Below are positions 19,170 to 19,704 of a stretch of DNA of 36,309 nt, in pieces. The notes under the pieces were generated by a model. It did not search any database, was not told the origin of the DNA, and saw only the letters and a program-made list of their open reading frames with translations. Origin of the DNA: Candidatus Methylomirabilota bacterium. GTDB taxonomy: Bacteria; Methylomirabilota; Methylomirabilia; Methylomirabilales; CSP1-5. Both the position numbers and the translations under genes were made by a program. Numbering within the stretch: position 1 is the first letter of the stretch; every line of letters starts with the position of its first letter. Where the stretch lies: assembly GCA_027293415.1 (NCBI GenBank), contig JAPUFX010000015.1:1-36309 (forward strand), written 5' to 3'.

Positions 19170-19255
19170 AAGAAGGGCGCGAGAGACTTTTGCCTCACCG
19201 TGAGGGGCCGCTTTACCGGCAAATTGTCTAGTTCCCCAAAGGGAAAGGGGCGAGA

Positions 19256-19459
19256 CTACGCCTTCGTCACATTCGCAGCCTGCTTGCCCTTGGGGCCATC
19301 GACAATATCGAATTCCACCTCCTGGCCTTCCGTCAGTGACCGGAAGCCGGTCCCTGCGATGGCAGAATAGTGGACGAAAACGTCGTCCCCATCGGGCCGC
19401 TCAATAAAGCCGTAACCCTTGGAGTCATTAAACCACTTTACCTTGCCATTGACCCGCAC
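19256..19459 (-). CDS. Cold-shock domain protein (CspA family)
   Basis: A 67-residue single cold-shock domain that binds single-stranded RNA/DNA and melts RNA structure. RNP1 appears as KGYGFI and RNP2 as VFVHY, with the N-terminal [14 protein letters not shown] block and C-terminal [10 protein letters not shown] typical of CspA-like proteins. The start is GTG at 19459 behind AAGGAGG; a longer frame exists upstream but lies within the mRNA leader. A canonical promoter (19654-19682, minus) implies a leader of about 185 nt, as in cspA genes, with a terminator-like hairpin inside it. Divergent from galU. Confidence 0.95.
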
Positions 19460-19529
19460 TGCTTTCCCTCCTTTCCTGTCCTGCTCAAAGTTCCGGGGCT
19501 GGAAAACCTGGTGCAGTCCTTTCAAGCAC

Positions 19530-19566
19530 AAAAAAACCGCGAAGGTCCTCGATCTCCCCCCGCGGT
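19530..19566 (-). terminator. Terminator-like hairpin within the csp leader
   Basis: Read on the minus strand, ACCGCG (19566-19561) pairs with CGCGGT (19541-19536) across a 19-nt loop, and is followed by a run of seven T. It lies between the csp promoter and start codon, so it could act as an attenuator or temperature-sensitive switch. Confidence 0.45.
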
Positions 19567-19653
19567 CGAGCAAACCAACGGGATCGAAACCACTCGGTGC
19601 GGTACGGATATCGAGTGCTGCTCCAGGTCCTTTTCCTGCAAAGAGCAGGCGTG

Positions 19654-19682
19654 AATCTAAGGAATTTCCCGGACGTTGTCAA
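19654..19682 (-). promoter_or_regulatory. Strong sigma-70 promoter of the cold-shock gene
   Basis: On the minus strand TTGACA (19682-19677), a 17-bp spacer, and TAGATT (19659-19654). The -35 is a perfect consensus. Transcription would start near 19647, giving a leader of about 188 nt. Confidence 0.7.
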
Positions 19683-19704
19683 GTCCTTTTTCGCTGTACA
19701 CATA

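Follow-up and report, generated by a model that had tools for sequence, protein, structure and literature searches.

A candidate intrinsic transcription attenuator in the leader of a cold-shock gene of Candidatus Methylomirabilota

The cold-shock gene and its leader

We analyzed a stretch of 36,309 nt, here called the window, which carries a csp gene on its minus strand (19256..19459). The gene starts with GTG and encodes a canonical cold-shock protein of 67 amino acids. Its top NCBIfam match is CspE (E 1e-29, under that model's curated cut-off), it matches solved structures of CspB type (E 3e-25), and the closest Csp among named contigs belongs to Candidatus Methylomirabilota (NC10). On the other side of the csp leader lies galU (19782), which is divergent. 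A terminator-like inverted repeat stands just 3' of csp in the near-identical genome G004 (98% identical; about 1440-1500 of locus L004) and is absent from the window (about 19235-19255), where the gap sits between short direct repeats, AGGGAAAGG, which suggests a deletion or an assembly collapse.

Upstream of csp, on the same strand, we found a sigma-70-type promoter (19654..19682) composed of TTGACA (19682-19677), a 17-nt spacer and TAGATT (19659-19654), matching 10 of 12 consensus positions. Taken alone this match is weak, because two such sites occur in the scanned region against 1.0 expected; the site, including its spacer, is conserved across five species. Its spacing places the predicted start site at about 19647, so that the leader up to the GTG at 19459 spans about 188 nt. 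The near-consensus promoter and the leader length proposed in an earlier sequence-only reading of this DNA thus agree with our results. A Shine-Dalgarno sequence, AAAGGAGGG (19466..19474, minus strand), was assigned from the sequence and its conservation in the five species. A small 5' hairpin read from the sequence, CCTGC-TCTTT-GCAGG with a U-rich loop (19635..19649, minus strand), lies at or just past the start site and is a weak candidate, since only one of the five pairs is intact in all six sequences and each of the others is disrupted in one or two. Within the promoter spacer, CGGGAAATTCC (19661-19671, minus strand) is identical in all six species, and a near-palindrome there, GGAAATTCC, may be an operator or a polymerase contact.

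Between promoter and gene lies a predicted terminator hairpin (19535..19567, minus strand). Its stem of 11 pairs joins GACCGCGGGGG (19567-19557) to CCTTCGCGGTT (19545-19535) around the 11-nt loop GAGATCGAGGA, with a folding energy of -18.4 kcal/mol; a terminator scan that accepts loops of at most 8 nt had missed it. The ACCGCG/CGCGGT hairpin of the sequence-only reading is therefore present, as the outer six pairs of this longer stem. The same reading placed seven T after CGCGGT. A run of seven does exist (19530..19536, read 19536-19530 on the minus strand), but only six T follow the quoted arm, since the run counts the T of CGCGGT itself. The first two T of this U tract also belong to the stem, leaving five outside it, and six or seven T are present in all six species. 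Promoter, hairpin with U tract and gene start thus follow one another on a single strand, the promoter and start site being predicted.

Folding statistics of the window sequence are modest: 9 of 200 shuffles fold as well as the hairpin (z -1.88), and the stability of the complete leader is not unusual (z -0.61). We then compared leaders of this type among relatives. A model of the window leader (R1) gave one match in each of six of the seven genomes of the genus, all before csp, and none in the other 28 of the 35 genomes of the order at E ≤ 0.01. In five species, the window's own included and near-identical G004 left out, 33 of 38 columns of the hairpin and U run are invariant (mean identity 0.94), as are 23 of 29 in the promoter (0.89) and 11 of 13 in a block, AAAAGGACCTGGA, close to the start site (0.94). 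Identity is 0.70 from start site to block, 0.63 from block to hairpin and 0.54 from terminator to Shine-Dalgarno sequence. Conservation of the hairpin in relatives, set beforehand as a check on the terminator, was thus borne out within the genus. It is this cross-species comparison, not the statistics of a single sequence, that excludes a chance hairpin.

Leader terminators before csp genes of the order

We next asked how widely such terminators precede csp genes. A protein search of the window's own genome (G000) gave three csp genes, and a terminator lies in the leader of every one; the terminators of the other two genes (L002 and L003) differ in sequence from the window's, reading AAACCGCAAGGGCTTCATGAAAAGCCCTTGCGGTTT or nearly so, followed by a T run. 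Under a strict rule, requiring a hairpin of -10 kcal/mol or better with a U run no more than 130 nt from the start, a terminator was present in 49 of 69 distinct csp leaders from 60 genomes, the window's included (72 loci, a subset of the csp places listed; only seven leaders came from f7 genomes). Under a relaxed rule, 56 of 65 csp leaders of the order had a terminator shortly before the gene, compared with 10 of 63 csp genes of other phyla (drawn from 72 loci) and 17 of 109 non-csp genes (ORFs of at least 150 amino acids in the window and flanks), some of the last probably being terminators of the preceding gene. The built-in terminator proposed for this csp leader is accordingly strongly supported by comparison, through both its conservation and the enrichment of terminators before csp genes.

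The 65 leaders were drawn from 71 loci and represent 73 csp places at E < 1e-20; weaker cold-shock-domain places (E > 1e-16) and three csp starts with less than 150 nt of upstream sequence were left out. Three further csp genes fell outside the search motif (L130, L145, L150), two with a terminator and one without. Of the nine misses, five (L010, L011, L012, L017, L165) are the f6 counterparts of the window csp, all lacking a terminator; the others are L123, L128, L133 and L164, where L128 (masked with N) and L133 (a hairpin with no U run) were counted as misses. The relaxed rule found terminators in six of seven csp leaders of a first f7 set, and in a wider f7 set a terminator preceded 31 of 44 csp starts in 30 loci, the misses being mostly a second csp copy about 1.5 kb downstream. 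Two loci gave no row in the wider set (L219, L240), the first of which has a terminator before its first csp.

Several individual leaders were observed besides these tallies. In an Acidobacteria locus (L093) and a Bacillota locus (L084), a promoter-like site, a hairpin with a T run and csp follow in the same order, and a KSB1 locus (L054) has a hairpin with a T run before csp. A csp leader of a different type in genome G019 (L163) carries AAGGACCC/GGGTCCTT with a T run, a terminator that has perhaps arisen independently. In the csp leader of L026, the terminator is preceded by two U-rich stretches, GCCTTTTGTTTGC and GCGGTTTTT.

The sequence-only reading had also named covariance among leaders of relatives as a check, and here the outcome was divided. 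The stem of the window family hardly varies and shows no covariation (covariation term +1.59, unfavourable). Four terminator pairs in the f6_B family, by comparison, remain paired although both partners have changed, next to some pairs that are broken; the upper stem of this family contains 13 unpaired cells, and the covariation term reaches only -0.19. We therefore exchanged hairpin halves between leaders. Between families, 1689 of 1834 chimeras folded worse than both parents, with a mean energy of -12.8 kcal/mol against -20.1 kcal/mol for native hairpins. Members within families are mostly alike, and within-family swaps were worse than both parents in 27/30 cases for f7, 27/54 for f6_B, 8/18 for the window type, 34/82 for the g1 paralogues, 23/66 for f6_A, 2/6 for f4B and 0/6 for f3. 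Judged from these sequence comparisons, the csp leader terminator is kept by selection.

A second model, built from the g1 paralogue leaders (R2), gave 11 strong matches, 11 of 11 before csp. Among its 18 weak matches (E 1.7e-4 to 0.008), 11 are csp leaders of f6, f2 and f4, three are the reverse strand of g1 hairpins, and four lie elsewhere, namely three ordinary-looking terminators and one site in apparent coding sequence. Since those four are as strong as the csp ones (best 1.7e-4), the weak matches alone are no proof of homology; together with the alignments, the R2 matches suggest that the g1, f6, f2 and f4 leaders form one leader family. The ten g1 paralogues share a nearly invariant 5' stretch at the inferred start site, TTTCGTGATNGGCTTGTTGTGG, and f6_A leaders have a related stretch that is equally constant. 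TTTCGTGATNGGCTTGTTGTGG is U-rich, and Csp sites are often U-rich.

Predicted 5' pairing and folding across temperatures

The conserved block AAAAGGACCTGGA (19622..19634, minus strand) is complementary to the terminator loop and is the predicted antiterminator strand of the window family. Within it, GGACCTGGA can pair with TCCAGGACC, which comprises the loop and the start of the 3' arm, in 8 of 9 positions in five of the six species and in 7 of 9 in the window's own copy. A match this good was reached by 3-6 of 300 shuffles in those five species and by 45 of 300 for the window copy, and the loop pairing probability was reached by 5-15 of 300 shuffles in five of six species; because the species are related, these results are not independent. 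When the RNA was cut at the end of the loop and folded at 37 °C, the block-loop helix had a probability of 0.75-0.98 in five species and 0.0 in the window. At 10 °C the values were 0.94-0.99 in four of those five, with 0.01 in G004 (versus 0.75 at 37 °C). Once the 3' arm is complete, three of the five remain in the block-loop helix at 37 °C and the other two switch to the terminator, so the two structures are predicted to be of similar strength.

The window departs from its relatives by a single loop base, with TCGAGG (19547-19552, minus strand) where all five relatives, 98% identical G004 included, have TCCAGG, and this change breaks the predicted antiterminator helix. Other upstream pairings in the window leader leave the terminator at 0.00-0.10 and its outer six pairs at 0.03-0.30. 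With the block-loop helix lost and these competing pairings present, the window's own copy may be altered; since near-identical G004 keeps TCCAGG, the loop base may have changed recently or may reflect a mis-assembly. On these folding predictions, a loop-pairing antiterminator in the window family is about an even bet, and one in the window's own copy is doubtful.

Across the other families the predicted pairing varied. Loop pairing exceeded controls in the g1 paralogues (mean z -1.85), exceeded swapped loops (about -2) and not shuffles in f4B, and was weakly above control in f6_A. Shuffle controls showed no excess of loop pairing in f6_B, f7 or f3, and swap controls showed none in f6_B or f7. 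A classical antiterminator, in which the 5' element would pair with the 5' arm, was rejected on its weak pairing (mean z -0.34 over 43 leaders). The 43 rows of the 5'-arm and loop shuffle tests leave out L006, L007, L031 and one tandem L134 copy, for which the automatic start site was wrong, and the 41 rows of the loop-swap test also leave out L027 and both L134 rows.

We also folded 47 leaders, from start site to U run, at 5, 20, 37 and 50 °C (with the start sites of L006, L007 and L031 set by pattern). In equilibrium folding, the terminator kept a mean pair probability of at least 0.76 at all four temperatures in 43 of them. The four exceptions (L001, L006, L007, L008) are all of the window type. 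Only L008 showed a large temperature effect; its terminator fell from 0.88 at 5 °C to 0.06 at 37 °C and so was favoured in the cold. In the window leader the terminator stood at 0.00 at 5 °C and 0.09 at 37 °C, and its outer pairs at 0.03 at 10 °C and 0.30 at 37 °C.

Attenuation, its alternatives and known systems

Taken together, promoter, terminator and gene order indicate that the csp leader is very probably a transcription attenuator. RNA polymerase would start at a strong promoter and meet an intrinsic terminator after about 31-144 nt, a distance that varies with the csp family and is 80 nt here, and only polymerases that read through it would make csp mRNA. In the window family, the 5' block would pair with the terminator loop as it emerges, ahead of synthesis of the 3' arm. 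The antiterminator so formed would compete with the stem, and this competition would be the regulated step. The likeliest signal would be the amount of free Csp, giving autogenous control. Csp might act positively, by melting the terminator, or negatively, by keeping the 5' element open and so allowing the terminator to form. All strong R1 and R2 matches lie before csp genes, which, with the antitermination described for E. coli Csp proteins (below), we count toward a response to Csp itself, the other trigger offered by the sequence-only reading, being plausible. We give this explanation as a whole a probability of roughly 0.6. Control of attenuation by Csp itself falls a little short of even odds. 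We rank free Csp first among the candidate signals, and cold acting directly on the hairpin last. More tentatively still, most csp genes of one phylum could be under intrinsic attenuators through which Csp gauges, on the nascent leader, how much of it is free. This would be an RNA-chaperone thermostat working through termination and not through translation, mRNA decay or Rho.

The best-surviving alternative, though an unlikely one, is a passive partial terminator that lowers or insulates csp expression with no regulated switch. The predicted dominance of the terminator in 43 of 47 leaders and the weak antiterminator pairing in several families would suit such an element. It would not need conserved 5' sequences, however, and in the window family the block by the start site equals the hairpin in conservation, with well-conserved 5' elements in other families too, which counts against it.

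Less likely again is a gene for a small RNA of about 75-120 nt that acts in trans or as a Csp sponge, with csp also supplied by transcripts that read through its terminator. A promoter, a conserved 5' stretch and a terminator are the anatomy of a small RNA, and in the g1 paralogues the terminator lies only about 31 nt past the inferred start site, with TTTCGTGATNGGCTTGTTGTGG nearly invariant. Against this, the elements sit before csp in 6 of 6 R1 and 11 of 11 strong R2 matches, and no good promoter-like site was seen between terminator and csp. In 47 of 48 leaders the top promoter-like site within 140 nt before the terminator outscores any that follows it, the stretch after it being shorter, and we count this in favour of attenuation. 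When start sites were assigned, two of 49 leaders gave no TTGAC upstream. An independent small RNA elsewhere in the genome was rejected, as R1 matches csp leaders only and the strong R2 matches are all csp leaders.

An RNA thermometer is improbable. The sequence-only reading had proposed that the hairpin stops transcription at normal temperature and opens in the cold, as might suit a gene for a cold-shock protein, and the window's own leader does have somewhat less terminator in the cold. The folding predictions speak against this proposal, since 43 of 47 leaders retain the terminator over the whole range of 5 to 50 °C and L008 favours it in the cold, the wrong direction. Because the terminator wins at equilibrium in those 43 leaders, simple cold melting is disfavoured and a protein or kinetic trigger must be invoked. 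Finally, a chance hairpin, for which the modest single-sequence statistics (z -1.88) might speak, or the terminator of an upstream gene has a negligible probability given the conservation, the kept pairing, the enrichment before csp and a neighbour, galU, whose divergent orientation means that the hairpin is not its terminator.

The proposed csp attenuator can be set beside several known systems. Ribosomal protein L20 controls the infC operon of Bacillus through an autogenous transcription attenuator. The csp leader resembles it in having a leader terminator ahead of a protein gene that may be controlled by its product; the gene and the RNA are different, and product control is here only a proposal. 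The cspA thermosensor leader (RF01766; Giuliodori et al. 2010) likewise is a long leader on a cold-shock gene and, in the available sections of PMC3738593 and PMC3890552, acts on translation and stability. RF01766 gave no match at its gathering score anywhere in the window, nor at E up to 10 in 19440-19700, and no Rfam family matched the window csp leader. CspA, CspC and CspE of E. coli are described, in the parts of PMC11648934 and PMC12562117 available to us, as antiterminators at intrinsic terminators (Bae et al. 2000). Csp-family proteins and intrinsic terminators would thus come together in both cases, Csp action being presumed in ours; the E. coli proteins act on other operons (metY-rpsO), whereas here the terminator lies in csp's own leader.

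The csp leaders of E. coli and Salmonella are under Rho-dependent regulation (Delaleau et al. 2024, as cited in available passages of PMC12350095 and PMC12562117), and the available text of PMC12350095 reports an absence of Rho-site peaks at the cold shock genes of B. subtilis. The leaders studied here are like the Rho-dependent switches in that expression of a cold-shock gene would be regulated through premature transcription termination; unlike them, they carry an intrinsic hairpin with a U run where Rho acts there. Among the openly licensed papers listed by our searches, we noticed none that reports an intrinsic attenuator for csp leaders. Since csp leaders and attenuators are both known kinds, an intrinsic attenuator in a csp leader would, from the sequence evidence, be a new combination. 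A natural terminator in csp's own leader, kept across the phylum, would tie Csp activity to Csp synthesis, and the leaders, which in most families measure about 75-120 nt between start site and U run, are compact enough for direct tests of Csp antitermination. Set beside the Rho-dependent switches, these leaders suggest that termination in csp leaders arose not with Rho alone but also with intrinsic hairpins.
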